Positions 20,177 to 31,067 of a stretch of DNA of 38,099 bases are shown here, piece after piece. The stretch is from an uncultured Eubacteriales bacterium (GTDB lineage Bacteria > Bacillota > Clostridia > UBA1212 > CASDQQ01): NCBI GenBank assembly GCA_949282945.1, contig CASDQQ010000150.1, forward strand, positions 1 through 38,099, in the 5' to 3' direction. A program made the position numbers and the translations under genes. The notes beneath the pieces were generated by a model that had not been told where the DNA came from, did not search any database, and saw only the letters and a list, made by a program, of their open reading frames with translations. Each line of letters starts with the position of its first letter. The first letter of the stretch is position 1.

Positions 20177-21742
20177 TCATTTCAAAATAACATAGGTTGT
20201 AGGTAATACCTCTTCGCCGTGATGTGGCAGCAGGAATTTTCTGTCGCACAGAATAGATACCGGTGCGGATATTGCATCTTCAAACAGACGAAGATATGCC
20301 ATATCCTTGGCAAGTCGTTTCAGATACGACGGAACATGGTTTTTCAAAATTCCTGTTACCGTCTCCATCAGGGCTTCCGCCTCGTAAGCAATTCTCATAG
20401 CACTTTCCGAGAACATTTCTTTTAACATTTGATGCTGTTCTTTTGTTAAAACAGGAGCATTTACAAACAGGCCATTTTCCTTCGAAAACACATATCCTTT
20501 CCGAACCATATCGGCAGCGACCGCCAGATCGTTTTCGCTGAAATGCGCGGTATTGCGTTTTGCAATATTCAGAAATACATTGGTGGCAGTTTGCCGATTA
20601 AAAAAGTAGTGATGTACCATCTCTCCGTTAATCGGAAAATCCATAAATTGAATATAATCGCCGTTGTCATTCACTACATTTGATATTCCAAAGCCAAATT
20701 GCGATTCCCAAGCGCTGTGTTCCCCTTTTTCAGCGGCCCAGACAAAGCATTCGGTTCCGAACTTATCTTTCGGATAGATTACCTTTATTTTGTTTTGAAG
20801 TATATCAATAACCGCCCGATACAAAATAAAGCCAACCATCTGCCATGCAAACGAATTGCCTCCCATATCGGCTCCGTAAAATCCAATATTACGAACAGCT
20901 GTCTCTTGCCTTGAAATAGAATCCGTCAGGAGGACTGCAATCCGCTCGCGCAGCTCGGCTGTCTTCACATTGACTTCTTTTGAAAAATCATCCGTAAAAA
21001 TGACGATATTTGTTGAATACCGATTGCCGTCTTTTTTTAGCAGGTCATATTCGTACAGTTCGGACAGCTTATCCTCCATATAAGGAAGGGCAACACCGAT
21101 TTCCAGACTGATCTGCTCCGCCGTCAAATTATCATTATAACAGGCGAACAAAATATTTTGAGAGATTTTGCTATCACACAGGTTATAATACCGATTTGTT
21201 CCGTTTCCCCAAAACAGAAGGGTTAGTTCTTTTGGAGCATAACTTTGCTGACCGTAGGTTCGTTCCATATTCACACCTTCTTTCAGAATTTGTCGTGACT
21301 TGAAAAGCAAGTATTTTACCATGCCTTCGCTGATTTTGAGGTAAGTGGAAATTTCTGAACAGGCCTTATTTTCAATGTAATACAAAATAACTGCCTTACG
21401 ATATTTTTCGGAAAGCAAAGATAATTCGCGGCGCAGCAAATGCACTTCGGAATCATCTTCGGGTAGCAGTTCGGATTCATCTGAAAGGTTTTCTATCAAC
21501 TCGCAATCCTGAACTTTGGCCCTTTTTCGCAGCCATTGTTTATATACATTGCCTGCGACCGCCCACATAAACCCGTAAAAGGTGTCCGCACTTCGTATTT
21601 TTTCGGCGGATTTATAAACCTCGATCAGGATATCCTGTGCCAAATCCTCTGCTTCAAACTGGTTTGGTGTGCGAGCGGCACAGTAAGAGAAGAGCGTTTT
21701 TGTAATCTTCTCTATTTTGTCATCCAGTTCGTGCCTATCCAC
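20177..21742 (-). CDS. ECF-like sigma factor with a large C-terminal extension
   Basis: A 521-residue protein. Residues about 5-75 carry sigma-70 region 2 (FEAEDLAQDILIEVYKSAEK, then FYGFMWAVAGNVYKQWLRKR) and about 105-155 region 4 (LSEKYRKAVILYYIENKACS, then EISTYLKISEGMVKYLLFKS). A normal ECF factor ends there. Here about 360 more residues follow, starting with a possible winged-helix segment (LTAEQISLEIGVALPYMEDK) and then an unrecognised region with no membrane helix. The extension may be a sensor or built-in anti-sigma domain, as in other ECF groups with C-terminal extensions. The start is GTG at 21742, with AAGGAGG seven bases upstream. A perfect palindrome lies at 21775-21793. No anti-sigma gene is adjacent. 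The gene stands alone between unrelated units, which suggests acquisition. Target promoters are unknown. Confidence 0.8.
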   Translation of the reverse strand: MDRHELDDKIEKITKTLFSYCAARTPNQFEAEDLAQDILIEVYKSAEKIRSADTFYGFMWAVAGNVYKQWLRKRAKVQDCELIENLSDESELLPEDDSEVHLLRRELSLLSEKYRKAVILYYIENKACSEISTYLKISEGMVKYLLFKSRQILKEGVNMERTYGQQSYAPKELTLLFWGNGTNRYYNLCDSKISQNILFACYNDNLTAEQISLEIGVALPYMEDKLSELYEYDLLKKDGNRYSTNIVIFTDDFSKEVNVKTAELRERIAVLLTDSISRQETAVRNIGFYGADMGGNSFAWQMVGFILYRAVIDILQNKIKVIYPKDKFGTECFVWAAEKGEHSAWESQFGFGISNVVNDNGDYIQFMDFPINGEMVHHYFFNRQTATNVFLNIAKRNTAHFSENDLAVAADMVRKGYVFSKENGLFVNAPVLTKEQHQMLKEMFSESAMRIAYEAEALMETVTGILKNHVPSYLKRLAKDMAYLRLFEDAISAPVSILCDRKFLLPHHGEEVLPTTYVILK

Positions 21743-22138: not shown

Positions 22139-23239
22139 TTATATTACTATAAGATTACGGTCAGTTTGGGTAATCACTTCACATCCTCCGTCTTTAATAA
22201 TTATCATATCTTCTATCCTAACGCCACCAAGTCCTTCAATATAAATTCCAGGCTCTATGGTTATGATGCTGTTTGCCTCAAGTGGTCTGTCATTTGAAGT
22301 ATTTGCGTTGGGTGCTTCATGTATCATAAGCCCTACACCGTGTCCCAGTCCGTGGCCAAAATTTTCTCCGTAACCCATTTCCCGTATATAGCTTCTTGCT
22401 ACAAAATCCAAATCCTTACCCGTAATTCCCGCTTTTGCCGCTTTTATAGCTTTTTCTCTCGCTGTATTTACTATATGATATATTTTTTCAAGCGCTTTTG
22501 TCTCGTCTCGTTTTTCAGTGTTTCCTACAAAAAAAGTCCTCGTCATATCAGAGCAATATCCTTTATAGATACATCCAAAATCAACGGTAACTATATCTCC
22601 GTCGTCAATAACTTTCTCGCTTGCCGTTCCGTGGGGCATAGCCGAACGTTTTCCTGAAGCAACTATAGTTTCAAAAGAAGTCCCCGAAGCTCCTAGTTCC
22701 ATCATCTCGTATTCTAGCCGGTTTTTGACCTGAAGCTCAGTCATCCCAGGCCTTATATACCGTATCACACGTTCAAGCGCCGCGTCGCCTATACGCGCGG
22801 CCTGATATATCAAAGCAGTCTCAGTTTCATCTTTAATACTTCTAAGCCTTTCTACTTTTCCGCTCCCGTCCAAAAGCATTATCCCGTTAAGACTTTCCCT
22901 AAGATTTTTATACTCTTTATAAGTTATAAAATCCTCTTCTATAAAAATATTTTTTATTCTATTTTCCTTTGCCAGTTTATGCAAAAATTTTCCCGGGTCT
23001 CTCCCTCCGTTCAATACTTTATATGCCCCCTCTGTTTCAAGTCCGGCCTGTTCAATATACCTGAAATCTGTTATGAGGAAATTTTCCCTGTCGGTAATCA
23101 AAAGTTGGGCCTCTCCGCCTGTAAATCCTGATAAATACCTGACATTGATGGGATTTACAATGTAAAAACCTCCGCCTGCCCCAAATTGGGCAGTTCCTTT
23201 CAATTTATAGATTCTTTTTTCAATAATCTTTTCTTTCAT
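22139..23239 (-). CDS. Xaa-Pro aminopeptidase-like M24 metallopeptidase
   Basis: A 366-residue cytoplasmic peptidase of the M24B type, removing N-terminal residues before proline or splitting X-Pro dipeptides. Residues 1-125 are a creatinase-like N-terminal domain (YIVNPINVRYLSGFTGGEAQ). The C-terminal pita-bread domain has all five metal ligands: Asp in VTVDFG, Asp in CSDMTRTFF, His in GHGLGHGVGL, Glu in TIEPGIY and Glu in VRIEDM. The size and the HGLGHGVGLMIHEAP motif fit the PepP/PepQ/YpdF group; aminopeptidase and dipeptidase cannot be told apart here. ATG at 23239 directly follows the stop of the previous gene (TAAATG), so translation is probably coupled. It is the last gene of a three-gene unit starting at 25485. 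Confidence 0.93.
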   Translation of the reverse strand: MKEKIIEKRIYKLKGTAQFGAGGGFYIVNPINVRYLSGFTGGEAQLLITDRENFLITDFRYIEQAGLETEGAYKVLNGGRDPGKFLHKLAKENRIKNIFIEEDFITYKEYKNLRESLNGIMLLDGSGKVERLRSIKDETETALIYQAARIGDAALERVIRYIRPGMTELQVKNRLEYEMMELGASGTSFETIVASGKRSAMPHGTASEKVIDDGDIVTVDFGCIYKGYCSDMTRTFFVGNTEKRDETKALEKIYHIVNTAREKAIKAAKAGITGKDLDFVARSYIREMGYGENFGHGLGHGVGLMIHEAPNANTSNDRPLEANSIITIEPGIYIEGLGGVRIEDMIIIKDGGCEVITQTDRNLIVI

Positions 23240-24100
23240 TTATTTTTTCTCTCCTGTATAAGAAGTCAATATTCTCTTAAACTCTAATGCGTCTTCCGCC
23301 TGATTTCCCGCGGATTCGCAAATAATGACCGGGCTCATATCCCTTTTTTGGATAACCTCCGCCAAGGGTTCAAAATCCGGTCCGTATTCAACATCGCAAT
23401 AGTTCCAGTGACGGACCTCGCCTCCGGTAGAAAACTGTATTCTGCTGAAATGAACGTGCAGATTTCTCATTCTGTCCACTCCAAGCTTATTCTCCACCAT
23501 ATCCATAAGCCTATCGAAATCCTCCGCCGTCTTTAATCCTCCGTGAGTCCTGGCGTTTATATGTCCGAAATCGAAAGTGGGGATAAGCCTTTCATCTAAA
23601 GAGCAAAGGTCTATTACCTCTTCCACATTTCCGAGCTGATTTATTTTTCCCATAACCTCGGGGCAAATAGTTATATTTCCATAGCCGCCTTCGTCCGCTT
23701 CTCTGATAATTCTCGGCATAAGACCGAGAGCTAGCTCCATAGCTTTATCTCTTGACATTTTCCCGCAGCCTCCGGGATGAAAAACTATTCTGGAAGCCCC
23801 TAAATTTTTTGCGGCCTCCAGAGTCTGCATAATGTACATTACGGAATTATCTATTTTTTGCTGCTCAGTACTGGCCAAATTTATAAAATATGGAGCGTGT
23901 ACGCTCATGGCTATATCATATTTTTCCGCCTCATCTTTTATTGCTTTAGCCGTTTCCTTCCCTATCCGTACACCCTGTCCGCACTGATATTCATAGGCGT
24001 TAAGTCCCATTTCGCGCAGCCACGCGGGAGCCTGCTCCGACCGTTTAAAACCTGCTTTGTAAAAAGCTTCTCCGTTTCCCGCCGGTCCAAATCTCACCAT
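23240..24100 (-). CDS. Endonuclease IV-fold TIM-barrel protein (Nfo-like)
   Basis: A 286-residue protein of the AP endonuclease 2/sugar isomerase superfamily. Metal-ligand motifs appear in the Nfo order: SVHAPYFINLAS, IVFHPGG, ITICPEVMGKINQLG, PTFDFGHINAR, LHVHFSRIQF and VIICESAG. In endonuclease IV the Glu motif reads PETTAGQG; here it is PEVMGKINQLG, so activity on abasic DNA is likely but not certain. ATG at 24100 overlaps the stop of the preceding gene by seven bases, and its own stop touches the next start, so all three genes are translationally coupled. A DNA-repair role beside a shikimate enzyme and a peptidase has no obvious logic. Confidence 0.85.
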   Translation of the reverse strand: MVRFGPAGNGEAFYKAGFKRSEQAPAWLREMGLNAYEYQCGQGVRIGKETAKAIKDEAEKYDIAMSVHAPYFINLASTEQQKIDNSVMYIMQTLEAAKNLGASRIVFHPGGCGKMSRDKAMELALGLMPRIIREADEGGYGNITICPEVMGKINQLGNVEEVIDLCSLDERLIPTFDFGHINARTHGGLKTAEDFDRLMDMVENKLGVDRMRNLHVHFSRIQFSTGGEVRHWNYCDVEYGPDFEPLAEVIQKRDMSPVIICESAGNQAEDALEFKRILTSYTGEKK

Positions 24101-25485
24101 ACCTTTATACCTCTTTCTTTTAAAAGTTTAACAGCGCTGTCTACCTGTTCTTCCGTAATTTCCGGGCAGCCCGCTTCCTTAGTCCATATTTTAAAAGCCT
24201 CTAATCCCTGGAAAAAAAGCATTCCCATTCCATTGATAGCCAAAGCCCCCTCTTTTTCAGCTTTTTTCAAAAGCAGGGTCCTTTCCGGATCATATATCGC
24301 ATCAAAGCAAACCTGGCCTTTTCTAAATTCAAACGGTACAGTTATAGGCAAAATGTCCTCCTGGGGTCTCATTCCTGCGGACGTAGTGTTTGCGATCAGG
24401 TCATATTCTTTGAATTTTTCTGAAAAATCCCCGTCCTCCCAGTCTATAACCTGGCCTCCGAAGATCTCAGCCAGTTCTCTGGCCTTAGATATCGTGCGGT
24501 TGCAAAAATCCACGGTTGCCCCGCTTTCTATACATCCTGCCGCGACTCCTCTGGCAGCTCCGCCAGCGCCGAGGATAAGTATTTTCTTATCTTTAAAATC
24601 AAATCCCGTTTCATGTTTTACAGCGTTTACAAAACCGTACATATCCGTATTGTATCCATAGGTTTTTCCATTTTTAAACACTATCGTATTTACCGCGCCT
24701 ATCTTTTTGGACCAATGGTCGGCGCTGTCAAGGAATTTCATTATATTTTCTTTATGAGGTACGGTGACGTTCAGTCCTTTAAATCCTTTAGCTTTAAACG
24801 CCTCAAAGCTTTGTTCTAAACTTTCCGGAGCCACGCAGAATTTTTCGTAGAAAAAATTAAAACCTGTAACCTGGCAAAATACATTGTGAAGCTGAGGCGA
24901 TACGGAATGTTCTATAGGATAGCCTATTACTCCCAAAAGTCCCACTGTATCTCCCCCCATTTTCTTCAAAGATCTTCGGTAAGAAGAAATAATGGGACGC
25001 TCCAGGACTCTTTTGGACTTTATAAACAAAGATTCATTTTTATCGATAGGCGTTACCCATATTGTAAAAACGCCGTTTATATTCCCGCCTAAAATGTCCG
25101 TAAAAAACTGATCCCCTATTATACACATATTCTTAAAGTCCGCTCCAAGCAGCCTGGCCGCGCGCTTAAAACCCTTTCCAAGGGGTTTCCCCGCTTTTCC
25201 TATAGTTATTATTTCATCCTTTTTAAAAATATCCTCCGGAATATTTTCAGTGAATACGCTGGCTCTTTCTTCTGTAGCATTGGAAAGGACAGCCGTTGTT
25301 ATACCTGCTCCTTTTAGTGCTCTAAGCCAATCTATAACTTTTTTATCAGGAATTTTTACACTGTATGGTACCAGAGTGTTATCAATGTCTAAGAGCACGT
25401 GGGTTATTCCTTTATACTTCAAAAACTCAGGTGATATTTCATATATATTATTAAAATGAACATTGGGGAAAAAAATATTGCTCAT
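24094..25485 (-). CDS. aroE: YqeG-type HAD phosphatase fused to shikimate dehydrogenase AroE
   Basis: A 463-residue two-domain protein. Residues 1 to about 175 are a YqeG-like HAD IIIA phosphatase: motif I DIDNTLV, motif II VLSNAT, Lys in GKAGKPLGKGF, motif III GDQFFTDILGGN. From about 180 it is a complete shikimate dehydrogenase that reduces 3-dehydroshikimate with NADPH: GYPIEHSVSPQLHN, the catalytic Lys in NVTVPHKEN, GAVNTI, Asp in GYNTDMYGF, dinucleotide loop GAGGAARGVA, NTTSAGM and GMGMLFFQGLEAF. In Bacillus, yqeG and aroE are separate genes with yqeH between them; here they are one polypeptide and yqeH is absent. Both halves keep their key residues. AGGAG precedes ATG at 25485. It is the first gene of a three-gene coupled operon. 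Confidence 0.93.
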   Translation of the reverse strand: MSNIFFPNVHFNNIYEISPEFLKYKGITHVLLDIDNTLVPYSVKIPDKKVIDWLRALKGAGITTAVLSNATEERASVFTENIPEDIFKKDEIITIGKAGKPLGKGFKRAARLLGADFKNMCIIGDQFFTDILGGNINGVFTIWVTPIDKNESLFIKSKRVLERPIISSYRRSLKKMGGDTVGLLGVIGYPIEHSVSPQLHNVFCQVTGFNFFYEKFCVAPESLEQSFEAFKAKGFKGLNVTVPHKENIMKFLDSADHWSKKIGAVNTIVFKNGKTYGYNTDMYGFVNAVKHETGFDFKDKKILILGAGGAARGVAAGCIESGATVDFCNRTISKARELAEIFGGQVIDWEDGDFSEKFKEYDLIANTTSAGMRPQEDILPITVPFEFRKGQVCFDAIYDPERTLLLKKAEKEGALAINGMGMLFFQGLEAFKIWTKEAGCPEITEEQVDSAVKLLKERGIKVW

Positions 25486-25599: not shown

Positions 25600-26670
25600 A
25601 TGGCATTAGATATTAAAGTAACAAGAACAACTACTCCGAAGGCTAAGCCGGATATGGACAATCTAGGCTTCGGAAAGTACTTTACGGACCACATGTTTAT
25701 AATGAACTACACTGAGGGCAAGGGTTGGCATGACGCCCGCATAGTACCCTATGAGCCTATTGTGTTGGACCCCGCGGCAATGGTATTTCACTATGGTCAG
25801 GAAATGTTTGAAGGGTTAAAAGCATATAAGACGGAAGACGGAAGGACTCTTCTTTTCAGACCTGATAAGAATATAGAGAGAGCTAACCGCACAAATGAAA
25901 GAATATGTATCCCAACCATTCCGAAAGAGGATTTTCTGGACGCGATAAAGGCGATCGTAAAGACTGACGAGGATTGGATTCCTACAAATCCCGGAACATC
26001 ACTATACATAAGACCTTTTATCATAGCTACCGACCCTGTTTTGGGAGTTCGCCCTTCCTATACTTATATGTTCATTATAATTCTTTCACCGGTAGGTGCC
26101 TATTACTCAGAGGGACTTAATCCGGTAAAAATATGGATCGAAGACGATTATGTAAGAGCTGTACGCGGCGGCGTAGGAGAAGCAAAGACAGGCGCTAACT
26201 ATGTGGCAAGTATGAAAGCCCAGGTAAAAGCGCATGACGAGGGATATTCCCAGGTTTTATGGCTTGACGGCGTTTACCGCAAATATATAGAAGAAGTGGG
26301 CGCCATGAACATTTTCTTTAAGATCAATGGAACTATTGTAACTCCCGCCCTGAACGGAAGTATTCTTCCTGGCGTTACCAGAGATTCTGTAATCCAACTT
26401 TGCAAATACTGGGGCGTTCCCGTAGAGGAAAAAAGGATATCTATAGACGACATATTCGAGGCGTATCAGAACGGAACTCTTGAAGAGGTTTTCGGAACAG
26501 GTACGGCGGCCGTCATCTCCCCGGTAGGCGAACTCAGGTGGGAGGACAGGATCATGCCCGTAAACGGCGGAAAGATAGGCGCTTTCAGCCAGAAATTCTA
26601 TGATACTGTTACCGGGATCCAAACTGGCAAGATTGCTGACGAACACAACTGGACTGTTGAAGTAAAATGA
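25600..26670 (+). CDS. ilvE: Branched-chain amino acid aminotransferase
   Basis: A 356-residue fold-type IV PLP enzyme that transaminates leucine, isoleucine and valine with 2-oxoglutarate. Diagnostic stretches are YGQEMFEGLKAYK, RPDKNIERANRTNERI, LYIRPFIIATDP, the PLP-binding Lys in GVGEAKTGANYVAS, YIEEVGAMNIFF, GVTRDSVIQL and GTAAVISPVG. The start is ATG at 25600, eight bases after AGGAGG (25586-25591); an in-frame TTG at 25594 is too close to that site. The gene stands alone between a divergent operon and a convergent hydrogenase operon, with a promoter at 25543-25571 and a terminator at 26690-26727. Confidence 0.97.
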   Translation: MALDIKVTRTTTPKAKPDMDNLGFGKYFTDHMFIMNYTEGKGWHDARIVPYEPIVLDPAAMVFHYGQEMFEGLKAYKTEDGRTLLFRPDKNIERANRTNERICIPTIPKEDFLDAIKAIVKTDEDWIPTNPGTSLYIRPFIIATDPVLGVRPSYTYMFIIILSPVGAYYSEGLNPVKIWIEDDYVRAVRGGVGEAKTGANYVASMKAQVKAHDEGYSQVLWLDGVYRKYIEEVGAMNIFFKINGTIVTPALNGSILPGVTRDSVIQLCKYWGVPVEEKRISIDDIFEAYQNGTLEEVFGTGTAAVISPVGELRWEDRIMPVNGGKIGAFSQKFYDTVTGIQTGKIADEHNWTVEVK

Positions 26671-26758: not shown

Positions 26759-28201
26759 TTACATTAAAATCTTGATCGCGTCGGTAATGGTTTTTTCATA
26801 GGCCTCTTTGCCGTATTTGTCAACTTCGCTCTTGTTCTTCTCTCCGTGAGTAAGACATCCGGCTCCGCCTATGCATCCTCCCTTGCAGGCCATTCCCTCA
26901 ATAAAGTTATACGGCACTCCCTCGATTCCAGAGCTCTTAATTATCGCCGAGGCCTTTAAAAGCGCCGCTCTGCATTCTTCTATTCCATCGCAGGATACGG
27001 ATTTTACTTCAAAGTCTATATTTTGTTCCTTTAGGGACTCTTTTACAGCGTCGCTTAATCCACCGCAGCGCGCGAATATACGTCCGTAATAGGAAGCGTT
27101 GTCCAAAACTCCCAGAGGAAGCTCGGAAAGCTCTATATCTCTGCTGTCAATAAGAGCCTGAAGCTCCTCAAAAGTAAGAACGCTGTCAACATAAGGACTG
27201 ACGCTTTCTTTCTTAATCTCCATTTTCTTAGCGGTACAAGGCCCTATAAAGACAATCTTTGAGGTAGGATCCGTTTCTTTTATATACTTTGAAATAGTAG
27301 CCATAGGGGATATATTGTGAGAAATAAACTCCCTGAGCTGTGGAAAGCTTTTTTCTATATAATCTACAAAAGCCGGGCAGCAGGAACTTGTAAGGAATCC
27401 TTTTTCAGCAAGCTCCGGTCCCTCTTTGTACGCTACCATGTCGGCTCCCAGGGCCGCCTCTACTACACTGTAAAATCCAAGTTCCTTTATAGCGCTTATT
27501 ATCTGTCCCAACGGCGCGTATGTAAACTGACTGGATATAGAAGGTGCTACTACCGCATATAACTTATATTTCGTATTATTCTCACTCTTTTTAATAAGAT
27601 CGATAACATCAAGTATATAAGATTTATCCATTATTGCCCCAAAGGGACACTGATATACGCAGGCTCCGCAGGCGGTGCATTTATCGTTATCTATTGAGGC
27701 GACTTTAGTATCGCTCATACTTATAGCCTTGACCTTACACGCGTTTTCACAGGGTCTCTTATTATTTGAAATAGCATTATACGGACACACCTTGGCACAC
27801 ATACCGCATTCTACGCATTTGTCCTTATCTATGTGAGCCTTTTGATTATGGTCGAATGTTATGGCCCCTTTCTTACAAACATCCTCGCAGCGGTGGGCTA
27901 TACATCCTCTGCACGCGTTGGTAACCTCATATCCGCCTACCGGACATTCATCACAGGCAATATTTAAGACCTCTATTACATTGGGATTATTACGATCTCC
28001 TCCCATAGCCAGAGCAATCCTTTCTCCTACTATAGCTCTTTCTTTATATACGCAGCATCTCATAGTAGCTTCAGTTCCGGAAATTATTTTAGTAGGTATT
28101 TCTAAAGGCGCCCTTTCTAAATTTCCGTCGAAGGCATATCTGGCGACCTCTCTGAGTACCTTATATTTTAGATGCTGGACTTTTGTATCAAATTTTCTCA
28201 T
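26759..28201 (-). CDS. hydA: Monomeric [FeFe]-hydrogenase, probably group B
   Basis: A 480-residue cytoplasmic iron-sulfur enzyme that forms or uses H2. The N-terminal 190 residues hold many cysteines, including two classical [4Fe-4S] sets (C129/132/135/139 and C175/178/181/185) and further sets at C83-C109 and C151/C155. The H-cluster motifs are complete: L1 TSSCCPAF (C274, C275), L2 GPCTAKKME (C322) and L3 EGMACKGGCIGGAG (C439, C443). The retained Cys-Cys-Pro in L1 and Met in L3 fit a catalytic enzyme, unlike the HydS protein in the same operon. The extra Cys-rich N-terminus and lack of a diaphorase partner suggest a ferredoxin-linked group B type; the subgroup needs a tree. Maturases HydE, HydF and HydG are not in the window. 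GAGGGGG precedes ATG. Confidence 0.9.
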   Translation of the reverse strand: MRKFDTKVQHLKYKVLREVARYAFDGNLERAPLEIPTKIISGTEATMRCCVYKERAIVGERIALAMGGDRNNPNVIEVLNIACDECPVGGYEVTNACRGCIAHRCEDVCKKGAITFDHNQKAHIDKDKCVECGMCAKVCPYNAISNNKRPCENACKVKAISMSDTKVASIDNDKCTACGACVYQCPFGAIMDKSYILDVIDLIKKSENNTKYKLYAVVAPSISSQFTYAPLGQIISAIKELGFYSVVEAALGADMVAYKEGPELAEKGFLTSSCCPAFVDYIEKSFPQLREFISHNISPMATISKYIKETDPTSKIVFIGPCTAKKMEIKKESVSPYVDSVLTFEELQALIDSRDIELSELPLGVLDNASYYGRIFARCGGLSDAVKESLKEQNIDFEVKSVSCDGIEECRAALLKASAIIKSSGIEGVPYNFIEGMACKGGCIGGAGCLTHGEKNKSEVDKYGKEAYEKTITDAIKILM

Positions 28202-28219
28202 ATTATACCCCCTCTTTTT

Positions 28220-29392
28220 TTAAAAATAGCTTACCTTGATTTTCTTCCCCATCTGTTTAAGGCATTCCGCTAATTCATCTACAAGTCTCATCTTTATACT
28301 GAAGTTTATAGGCAGATCGGGATTCTGATGAGCCGGATTTATGGCTCTTCCTATATAAAAACTTATATCCGTAGCCTCTTCAAATAATAATTTTGATATC
28401 TGTGAAGCTCCGTCCTTTTTGTATGCCCATTCCATAGTTTTAGTGTCGTCCGCAAGATATCCTTTGGCATACTCAAGCACTTTGTTGATGGTTATGACCC
28501 CCTCAGTTACAAGATCTACACCCTCGATCACTCCTATAGGCGGTATTTCCGGATCCATATATCCTAAAGTGGTCCCCAGTGGTTTCCCCAAATACTTGGC
28601 CGCCAATGTGGATGTGGTCCCTCCGCATACAATATGCTTTCCTTCCTTTGAGAAAAACAGTGACATCATTTTATCAACATCATCAGGATTGGACGGAGGA
28701 CCTATCATAAGATTCATAGGCTGACGCTTTCTTATCTTTACAGTACAAATAGTGGTGTCGTCTCCGGGACGACCTCCATAAAGTCTGTCGCACTCGCCTA
28801 AAAGAATGGTAGAAAGAGCTTTAGCGGTAAATTCATTGTCATAACTAAGCTCCATAAACTCAATTATGCTGTCTCTCTGCCATCCATAATTTAAAGTCAT
28901 TCCTATTCCCGCATGTATGGCGCCGTCGCTCATGGCAATAAAAGTATCGTTCTCTTTTATTAATACCTTTGCCTTATATATAGTCTTTCCTTCTATCTCT
29001 TCTGTAGTCTGCGGATAATCCACATTTTTCCCGTCCCGGAGAAAAATTACATGAGGATTATCGTACTGTATTATCTCGGCCTCACGGTTATCTACGACTC
29101 TTATTATAGTAAACGTGGAGTATGCTATTTTTCTCTCTTCGCACACCGGAAGGGTAGCCGCTATGGTTTTTACACATTCTTCCACGCTCATGGAGTTCGC
29201 CATCATTGTAGATATTATCTTGGAAGTAAGAGTAGAAAGAATATTTGCCTTTACACCGCTTCCAAGCCCGTCCGCAAGTACTATTACCGTAGAGTTTTCG
29301 CCCTGCTCCACGATCTCTATATGATCCCCGCAAAGCTGTTCTCCGTATTTATTTACACTTTTATACCCTATATCGGTACATAAATTATTCAT
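28220..29392 (-). CDS. PP2C/SpoIIE-type serine phosphatase with a C-terminal domain of unknown function
   Basis: A 390-residue cytoplasmic phosphatase. Residues about 5-222 form a SpoIIE/PP2C domain with the metal-binding aspartates in LADGLGSG (Asp41), AMSDGAIHAG (Asp156) and RPGDDTTI (Asp211, Asp212). About 165 further residues (from PMNLMIGPPSNPDDVDKMMS) form a domain I cannot assign. Its start overlaps the hydS stop by eight bases, and hydA follows after 18 bases. SpoIIE-type phosphatases next to sensory [FeFe]-hydrogenases are a known theme, so it probably relays the HydS signal by removing phosphate from a protein. The target is not visible; the APH-like kinase in the operon is a candidate opponent. 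AAGGAG precedes ATG at 29392. Confidence 0.88.
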   Translation of the reverse strand: MNNLCTDIGYKSVNKYGEQLCGDHIEIVEQGENSTVIVLADGLGSGVKANILSTLTSKIISTMMANSMSVEECVKTIAATLPVCEERKIAYSTFTIIRVVDNREAEIIQYDNPHVIFLRDGKNVDYPQTTEEIEGKTIYKAKVLIKENDTFIAMSDGAIHAGIGMTLNYGWQRDSIIEFMELSYDNEFTAKALSTILLGECDRLYGGRPGDDTTICTVKIRKRQPMNLMIGPPSNPDDVDKMMSLFFSKEGKHIVCGGTTSTLAAKYLGKPLGTTLGYMDPEIPPIGVIEGVDLVTEGVITINKVLEYAKGYLADDTKTMEWAYKKDGASQISKLLFEEATDISFYIGRAINPAHQNPDLPINFSIKMRLVDELAECLKQMGKKIKVSYF

Positions 29393-31067
29393 TTTTCAAC
29401 GACTCCTTAAGATTTGTAAGAGCTATTTTAGTTTCCGCCGTAGTTTCTCCCAGTAAAGAAGCAATTTCCTGGACTACTCTCATCTGCTTTTCTATAACCT
29501 TATCCGTTATCTCAATAGTCTGTCTGCTCATATTTTCCTTTTTGTATCTTTCATTTTCTTCTTCTGTTACATCTCTCATTATGATTATTATTATTTTATA
29601 GCCCCGGTCATATATAATGGACTCTTCCACATATTTTTCATATTCCGCCAAATACATTTTTCTGTCGTGTATATTGACCCCTTTATTGAGTACCTCAAAA
29701 AATGGCTGCGGATCCAGTATCCTTACGACCTGCTCTCCAAGAACGTCTTTTTCATTTCTTATATTCATTATCTTTCTTGCGGCCGCGTTTATCTGCTGTA
29801 CCTCAAGCGCCTCATTAAGAACTATGATCCCGTTAGGCGTGTTTTTTATTATATTGTCTGAAAATGACTCCGCCTTTTCTTTTAAAAACGGTAAGCACAT
29901 TGTCAGATCCGCTTTTCCCTGCAAAACAGCCACTGCCTTTTCTCTGCAGCTCTCGTAGCCGCAGCTTCCGCAGTTGAGCTCCTGTTCAGGAGTCATTTTC
30001 CCCATTTTATGCAGAATTTCTTCAATAGCCGCTCCGCCGGGTTTTTGCTTATGTGTTCCTATGAACGCGATATCCTTTTTAAGCAGTTCCTCTTCAGGCT
30101 GTTTTATATCAAAATCTTCCCTGCCCGCGTACTTATCCACCGCAATGAAATCTTTTATCGGCGATCTGTGATTCTTATCCATTGCAGGTCCGCCAATACA
30201 GCTTCCGGCGCACGCCGACATTTCTATAAAGCATTTATCAAGCTTGCCGTCTATAACATCGTTTATAGCATGTATACAGTTTTCTATCCCGTCTATAGTT
30301 ATGTAGCTGTAATCCTCGCTTTCTCGATTCATAGATCTTAGTATTCCTCCTGTGGTAGGAAATAGTCTGGCTCTTCCGTCTCCGTTTTCCTTCTCAGAAC
30401 CGTCCGGTTCAAGTTCTATCCCTTCTGAAGCCAACCACTTTGACAACTCTTCAAAGGTAAGAGCTACGTCTACTATATCTCCGTACTGCTCAGCCTCTTC
30501 TTTTTTTGAAATACACGGTCCTATAAAAACTGTTTTTGCTCCCGGATGTTCTCTTTTTATATAACTGCTGTGAGCCTGCATCGGCGACTGTACATGGGCA
30601 AGAAAAGGAAGCGCCTCCGGATAATGCTTTTGTATAAGTATATTTACCGTATGGCAGCAGGAGGATATTATTACGTTTTTCTCTCCGGACTCAACCATTT
30701 CGTCATAATACCTTTTCACTATGGTAGCGCCCAGAGCAGTCTCCTCCGCGTCGCAAAATCCCAGTTTCTTAAGGGCCTTTTTCATTGCTCCTATCCCTAT
30801 TCCATCATAATTGGCAACAAAGGACGGAGCTATGCTCGCGTATACTGAAAATCCGTCCGCTATCAGTTTTTTTGCTTTGTCTATATCGTCGCGTATCTCT
30901 TTGGCATTCTGAGGACATGCGACAAAGCAGCGTCCGCACAAAATACATTCGTCCTCTACGATATGCGCCTGATTATCGGCAAAACGTATGGATTTAACCG
31001 GACAATTCCTTATACATTTATAGCAGTTTTTACAGTTAGACTTTTTTAGCCTCAAATAATCCTTCAT
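29385..31067 (-). CDS. hydS: Putative sensory [FeFe]-hydrogenase HydS with PAS domain
   Basis: A 560-residue protein combining a hydrogenase core with a signalling part. Two [4Fe-4S] ferredoxin sets come first (C12/15/18/22 and C41/44/47/51). The H-cluster motifs are divergent: L1 ISSCCHTVN (C137, C138; Pro replaced by His), L2 GPCISKKEE (C185), L3 EMSACAGSCIGG (C286, C290), where the usual Met before Ala-Cys is Ser284. A further four-Cys cluster (C366, C369, C374, C391) links to a PAS domain (about 401-500; NIIKNTPNGIIVLNEALEVQ) and a C-terminal helical tail. This order is that of group C sensory hydrogenases, thought to report H2 or redox state rather than make H2 fast. No kinase domain follows the PAS; the output is probably the overlapping phosphatase. 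AAGGGG precedes ATG at 31067. Confidence 0.9.
   Translation of the reverse strand: MKDYLRLKKSNCKNCYKCIRNCPVKSIRFADNQAHIVEDECILCGRCFVACPQNAKEIRDDIDKAKKLIADGFSVYASIAPSFVANYDGIGIGAMKKALKKLGFCDAEETALGATIVKRYYDEMVESGEKNVIISSCCHTVNILIQKHYPEALPFLAHVQSPMQAHSSYIKREHPGAKTVFIGPCISKKEEAEQYGDIVDVALTFEELSKWLASEGIELEPDGSEKENGDGRARLFPTTGGILRSMNRESEDYSYITIDGIENCIHAINDVIDGKLDKCFIEMSACAGSCIGGPAMDKNHRSPIKDFIAVDKYAGREDFDIKQPEEELLKKDIAFIGTHKQKPGGAAIEEILHKMGKMTPEQELNCGSCGYESCREKAVAVLQGKADLTMCLPFLKEKAESFSDNIIKNTPNGIIVLNEALEVQQINAAARKIMNIRNEKDVLGEQVVRILDPQPFFEVLNKGVNIHDRKMYLAEYEKYVEESIIYDRGYKIIIIIMRDVTEEENERYKKENMSRQTIEITDKVIEKQMRVVQEIASLLGETTAETKIALTNLKESLKNE

Follow-up and report, generated by a model that had tools for sequence, protein, structure and literature searches.

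The DNA analyzed here, referred to as the window, is a stretch of 38,099 nucleotides (positions 1 to 38,099 of contig CASDQQ010000150.1) from an uncultured Eubacteriales bacterium whose source assembly, GCA_949282945.1, comprises 1.92 Mb in 153 contigs and is 84% complete. Its minus strand carries an open frame of 463 codons, running from ATG to TGA, in which a YqeG-type phosphatase is joined to the shikimate dehydrogenase AroE. The frame, its parts, and its neighbors are listed below.

22139–23239, minus strand: M24 aminopeptidase gene (pepQ-like), downstream; also a neighbor in relatives
23240–24100, minus strand: AP_endonuc_2 TIM-barrel gene, downstream, overlapping the end of the fused frame; also a neighbor in relatives
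24094–25485, minus strand: fused YqeG-AroE frame, 463 amino acids
24172–24939, minus strand: AroE shikimate dehydrogenase domain, residues 183–438 (TIGR00507)
24940–24963, minus strand: inter-domain joint, residues 175–182
24943–24945, minus strand: GTG, codon 181, presumed former aroE start and possible internal start, from pairing with the 16S tail
24951–24958, minus strand: GGGGGGAG, a Shine-Dalgarno-like site (run of six G at 24953–24958)
24964–25473, minus strand: YqeG HAD-IIIA phosphatase domain, residues 5–174 (TIGR01668)
25216–25239, minus strand: loop insertion in YqeG, approximately residues 83–90
25600–26670, plus strand: branched-chain aminotransferase gene (ilvE), divergent, upstream; also a neighbor in relatives

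No internal stop was found in the fused frame. The other two frames of the same strand hold 40 stops each over this stretch, indicating that the frame is not open by chance. The N-terminal half matched the NCBIfam model for YqeG (TIGR01668) with 103.5 bits against a curated cut-off of 89.1, covering model positions 3–166 of 170, and the C-terminal half matched the model for aroE (TIGR00507) with 251.9 bits against a cut-off of 200.2. Pfam matches in the frame were Shikimate_dh_N, Shikimate_DH, HAD hydrolases, and PF09419, the Gep4-type phosphatidylglycerophosphate (PGP) phosphatase family, the last with 30.3 bits against a gathering cut-off of 20.4. All HAD motifs (DxD, S, K, and GDQxxTD) were present in the YqeG half, and residues D33, D35, S68, K100, D125, Q126, and D130 were the same in all 74 YqeG sequences of an alignment. 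The AroE half contains the substrate and NADP motifs HSxSP, Lys, Asp, GAGGA, and NRT; when aligned with 2hk7, it retained S194 and S196 (HSVSP), K245 (NVTVPHK), and D281 (GYNTD), which we take to be catalytic. A PDB search with this half returned 2hk7 as the best match (E 4.2e-59; residues 4–256 of the 284-residue half), and the YqeG half gave weak HAD matches only (best E 0.00015). Single-sequence structure prediction of the fused protein had a mean pLDDT of 40, too low for the model to be used. The fused AroE is the sole PF08501 match in this genome. An earlier, sequence-only reading had described a true two-domain frame with both halves complete and their catalytic motifs present; the single open frame, the two curated cut-offs passed, and the active-site residues in place bear this out.

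With the YqeG family (TIGR01668, for example B. subtilis YqeG), the N-terminal half shares a nearly full-length match and the HAD catalytic residues. Elsewhere, YqeG occupies frames of 154–245 codons (among the over-cut-off matches listed, with one read-through exception), whereas in the window it is joined to AroE. It also shares the HAD core of the Gep4-type mitochondrial PGP phosphatases (PF09419), but matches that family less strongly than it matches YqeG. The C-terminal half resembles AroE (TIGR00507; 2hk7) in domain and motifs, but its N-terminus is not free and carries the phosphatase.

We searched for the same architecture in other genomes, as had been proposed. Among 31 genomes of the window's order (query P0001, E ≤ 1e-20), the window's fusion was the only one. 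At class level (391 genomes, E ≤ 1e-40), the search yielded two, that of the window and one in genome G241. In the order of G241 (51 genomes, E ≤ 1e-30), full-length fusions were present in G241, G409, G411, and G412, and a further fusion, in G406, is ended by a stop near a contig end. These genomes make up five of the eight searched from a single family, f74; the remaining three, with completeness of 55, 82, and 84%, gave no match. At phylum level (398 genomes, E ≤ 1e-45), the matches listed included the window's fusion only, and the class to which G661 belongs (37 genomes, E ≤ 1e-55) gave no fusion. These genome sets overlap, the E thresholds could miss divergent fusions, and the counts are among the matches listed. 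A contig scan found one AroE, at 34% identity, and no fusion. The architecture had been called unusual, and it is indeed rare, being found in the window's genome and in one family of another order, with four full-length genomes and one truncated. None of the titles and abstract openings listed in the literature searches describes a YqeG-AroE fusion, and passages of the one paper that names both YqeG and shikimate dehydrogenase treat them apart. G409 has two different YqeG-AroE fusions (loci L120 and L121) in one assembly with 5% contamination; they may be paralogs or contamination.

Two groups of candidate YqeG fusions were rejected. A 530-codon frame in G015 had been produced by a search that read through stops, and is really yqeG followed by a separate in-frame pepQ. 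Of the 31 genomes of the window's order, 25 have long AroE frames (409–564 codons), but these frames do not contain the YqeG match, which is located elsewhere or is absent from the matches listed. Those scanned, in G015 of the order and in G228 and G163 of the wider class, are AroE-AroK fusions (L141:733–2004 in the order; L096:2064–3413 and L102:3664–5052 in the class), and the frame lengths suggest that there are more AroE-AroK fusions in the window's order. PDB titles also record AroE fused to a dehydratase, in AROM, and to chorismate mutase (3fbt). In all of these known fusions, as in the window, AroE is one domain of a larger polypeptide; their partners, however, act in the aromatic pathway, whereas YqeG has no such known role.

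We then consider whether the window's two genes are truly joined. Codon 181, a GTG, sits where the AroE domain begins, downstream of GGGGGGAG. With an assumed 16S tail sequence, pairing was predicted at −10.7 kcal/mol for this codon, which ranks first among 20 start-like codons in frame; at their presumed starts, the fused gene, the TIM-barrel gene, and pepQ reach −7.1 to −7.4 kcal/mol. TTG 379, which lies deep in AroE and is surely no start, nearly equals it at −10.3 kcal/mol, so such pairing sites also occur by chance. One explanation of these features is that the genes are unfused in the cell, and that a consensus error, of one base in the six-G run or of another kind, merged two slightly overlapping genes. 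The six-G run adjoins the joint, and the +1 frame reaches a stop after 8 codons, which would leave an ordinary overlapping pair with aroE served by a Shine-Dalgarno-like site and a GTG start; moreover, no other genome of the window's family was among those searched. Nevertheless, the frame stays open over its entire remaining length, and four f74 genomes carry both domains joined at full length, with a truncated copy in a fifth, showing that the merger is viable. We consider an assembly or read error unlikely; given the same fusion in another bacterial family, the merger is probably real.

If the merger is real, the window's frame seems to retain the former start of aroE. Because the GTG at the joint has the strongest ribosome-binding-like site of the frame, the cell may produce free AroE alongside the fusion. 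Of the six f74 joints, two have no start-like codon, and in the others pairing reaches no more than −3.9 kcal/mol. The GTG 181 signal would fit a recent fusion in the window that is still able to yield free AroE.

The setting of the fused gene recurs in relatives as a cluster of divergent ilvE, yqeG-aroE, the TIM-barrel gene, and pepQ. ilvE is divergent and upstream of yqeG-aroE in loci L097–L099, L101, L103–L106, L109, L110, L136, and L137, and both the TIM-barrel gene and pepQ lie downstream in L095, L105, L120, L122, and L136. These neighborhood loci were picked mostly from the best matches and are not a random sample. aroE lies near yqeG in 12 of the 30 best YqeG loci (about 1.5 kb inspected on each side, with some loci cut by contig ends). 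A second set of 20 loci, of which 18 belong to the window's order, has pepQ beside yqeG in 15 and aroE in 2; in 13, yqeG is beside pepQ without aroE. In 14 genomes, yqeG and aroE share a frame but are separated by one or two stops, and were confirmed as two distinct genes; the genomes searched from G661's class gave three further candidates of this kind, also with stops. Unfused yqeG and aroE thus commonly lie side by side in relatives, and a fusion needs a mere stop loss or small frame change. The TIM-barrel protein itself matched nfo and CbiR, both below cut-off, and its gene recurs beside yqeG-aroE in other families at about 49–55% identity.

The sequence-only reading had linked the fusion to a loss of yqeH, by comparison with Bacillus, for which a passage of one paper gives the operon order as yqeG, yqeH, aroD, and so on (PMC5080769). 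The best YqeH match in the window's genome scored 35.1 bits, far under the cut-off of 297.4, so that no yqeH over cut-off lies elsewhere in this genome. Likewise, none of the 196 genomes searched as relatives, among them that of the window, gave a YqeH match at E ≤ 1e-60 or above the cut-off; in 14 control genomes, the search was positive in three (B. subtilis, T. maritima, and L. lactis). YqeG itself is common among these genomes, with matches at E ≤ 0.001 in 188 of the 196 and over cut-off in 126. As YqeH exceeds the cut-off in none of the 196 genomes, and yqeG of relatives often abuts aroE, the fusion does not reflect a local loss of yqeH. Unlike the Bacillus-type operon, neither the window nor these relatives have yqeH between the two genes.

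The fusions of the window and of f74 might have a single origin, shared by common ancestry or by transfer, a variant that is compatible with our overall explanation and that we hold to be possible but the less probable one. Domain order and downstream genes are the same in both. When all fused rows were held as one clade, the likelihood was higher than that of the quick free trees by 6.15 log units for AroE and 6.94 for YqeG, with AU p values of 0.614 and 0.632, respectively. The quick trees themselves (61 rows for AroE, 74 for YqeG, and 11 for the TIM barrel) set the window apart from f74. In the YqeG tree, however, grouping the window with the other members of its order gave a still better score, 13.08 above that of the free tree (p 0.697), and with 44 joined yqeG and aroE rows, one fused clade scored 4.13 lower (p 0.323). 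In the latter tree, the nearest neighbor of f74 is the unfused G040 (support 90/84), and the window lies in an open fork with f74, G004/G006, and others; placing it with G004/G006 was 0.66 lower (p 0.463). On one or two origins, the tree tests thus point both ways.

The YqeG loop of the window has 8 residues beyond the usual 17. Longer loops, with 5–11 extra residues, are shared by 11 of the 18 rows of its order and by none of the six f74 fused sequences; seven rows of the order are without one, and outside the order there is only one row with a longer loop, by a single residue. Constraining the window to group only with the rows that have longer loops lowered the score of the YqeG tree by 14.35 (p 0.287). 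The f74 joint is also about 10 residues shorter than that of the window. Because the loop insertion recurs in the window's own order, we lean toward two separate fusions, one in the window and one in f74.

In f74, all six fused sequences exceed the YqeG cut-off, and five, which are full-length, exceed that of aroE; G406 scores 189.2 for aroE against the cut-off of 200.2. For the close pair G411/G412, pN and pS were 0.055 and 0.526 in YqeG, 0.043 and 0.738 over the 30 codons of the joint, and 0.094 and 0.612 in AroE, a pattern that shows purifying selection through the joint. Three other f74 pairs have synonymous sites near saturation in both halves (pS 0.736 to 0.809), and the joint is less clear between G241 and G406 (pN 0.251, pS 0.475). 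In G411 and G412 (L122:6103–7371 and L123:6128–7357), the AroE half is without the residues around the NTTSxG motif; perhaps it is a decaying or altered enzyme.

We then turned to what the YqeG half may act on. The fusion had been offered as a hint that YqeG uses a phosphorylated metabolite near the shikimate pathway, for example shikimate 3-phosphate, so that the fusion would couple or regulate that pathway. In its favor are the widespread yqeG-aroE adjacency and the one or two fusions. Nevertheless, the genome has a separate AroK (a 175-codon frame), whose work a shikimate-phosphate phosphatase would undo; judged by eye, its neighbors resemble aroQ, a chorismate mutase protein, and aroC. In the 13 loci noted above, yqeG adjoins pepQ without aroE, and the family match of the YqeG half is to PGP phosphatase (PF09419). 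Passages on growth defects or essentiality of YqeG make no tie to aromatics: B. subtilis YqeG is stated to be required for normal plate growth (PMC5080769), and yqeG is described among the essential genes of S. sanguinis (PMC12691585). We regard a shikimate-pathway substrate as very improbable. The fusion loses its force as a hint, given that adjacency without fusion is common, that AroE has other fusion partners, and that the match is to the Gep4 type of PGP phosphatase.

PGP is the more likely substrate, as judged from family membership and gene content. Two pgsA genes are over cut-off in this 84%-complete genome, and no match to PgpA was found in it (PgpB-type enzymes were outside the search), so some PGP phosphatase is needed. 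According to a passage of a review, an algal homolog of yeast Gep4 complements a yeast PGP-phosphatase mutant (PMC5897459). Against PGP, B. subtilis YqeG is reported to have only weak phosphatase activity, with five nucleotides and glucose 6-phosphate assayed, and the text of that paper does not mention PGP (PMC5080769). Also against it, passages of two papers name S. mutans YqeG, by context, among 'essential ribosome biogenesis factors' (PMC13041782), and place YqeG in an RNA-flavored co-evolution cluster (PMC3814617).

Taken together, these observations are best explained, with a probability of about 70%, by a fusion of neighboring genes that gave a two-enzyme protein, a PGP-type phosphatase plus AroE with separate activities, in which free AroE may also be made and for which the f74 fusion may be independent. 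Under this explanation, yqeG and aroE, neighbors on the same strand, would have become one frame through stop loss where they meet, or through a slight shift of frame there, giving a single polypeptide with two separate catalytic units. The N-terminal HAD phosphatase would, from its family, probably act on PGP at the membrane surface, and the C-terminal unit, from its motifs and family, would be an NADP-dependent shikimate dehydrogenase; the two halves probably have no substrate in common. Such a fusion would alter the co-production of both enzymes and, more speculatively, could perhaps place AroE at the membrane. A fusion of the same pair, possibly independent, would have been kept in family f74. 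That the repeated joining and adjacency mark a functional connection of anionic-phospholipid synthesis with the shikimate pathway, for instance with AroE membrane-anchored or tuned by YqeG, seems to us quite doubtful. The locus thus presents a rare domain architecture made from joined neighbors, genuine but modest, which arose once or twice. The fusion is no evidence for a new YqeG substrate, but this naturally occurring YqeG-AroE protein, whose AroE half supplies an internal control of activity, would be convenient for testing the idea that YqeG is a PGP phosphatase.

Two other regions of the window drew our attention. At 26759–31067, a SpoIIE-type phosphatase lies between two proteins that resemble [FeFe]-hydrogenases, one of which has a PAS domain, a set that presumably resembles sensory hydrogenase sets. 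At 20177–21742, a 521-amino acid protein with Sigma-70 regions 2 and 4 has an unusually long C-terminal part.
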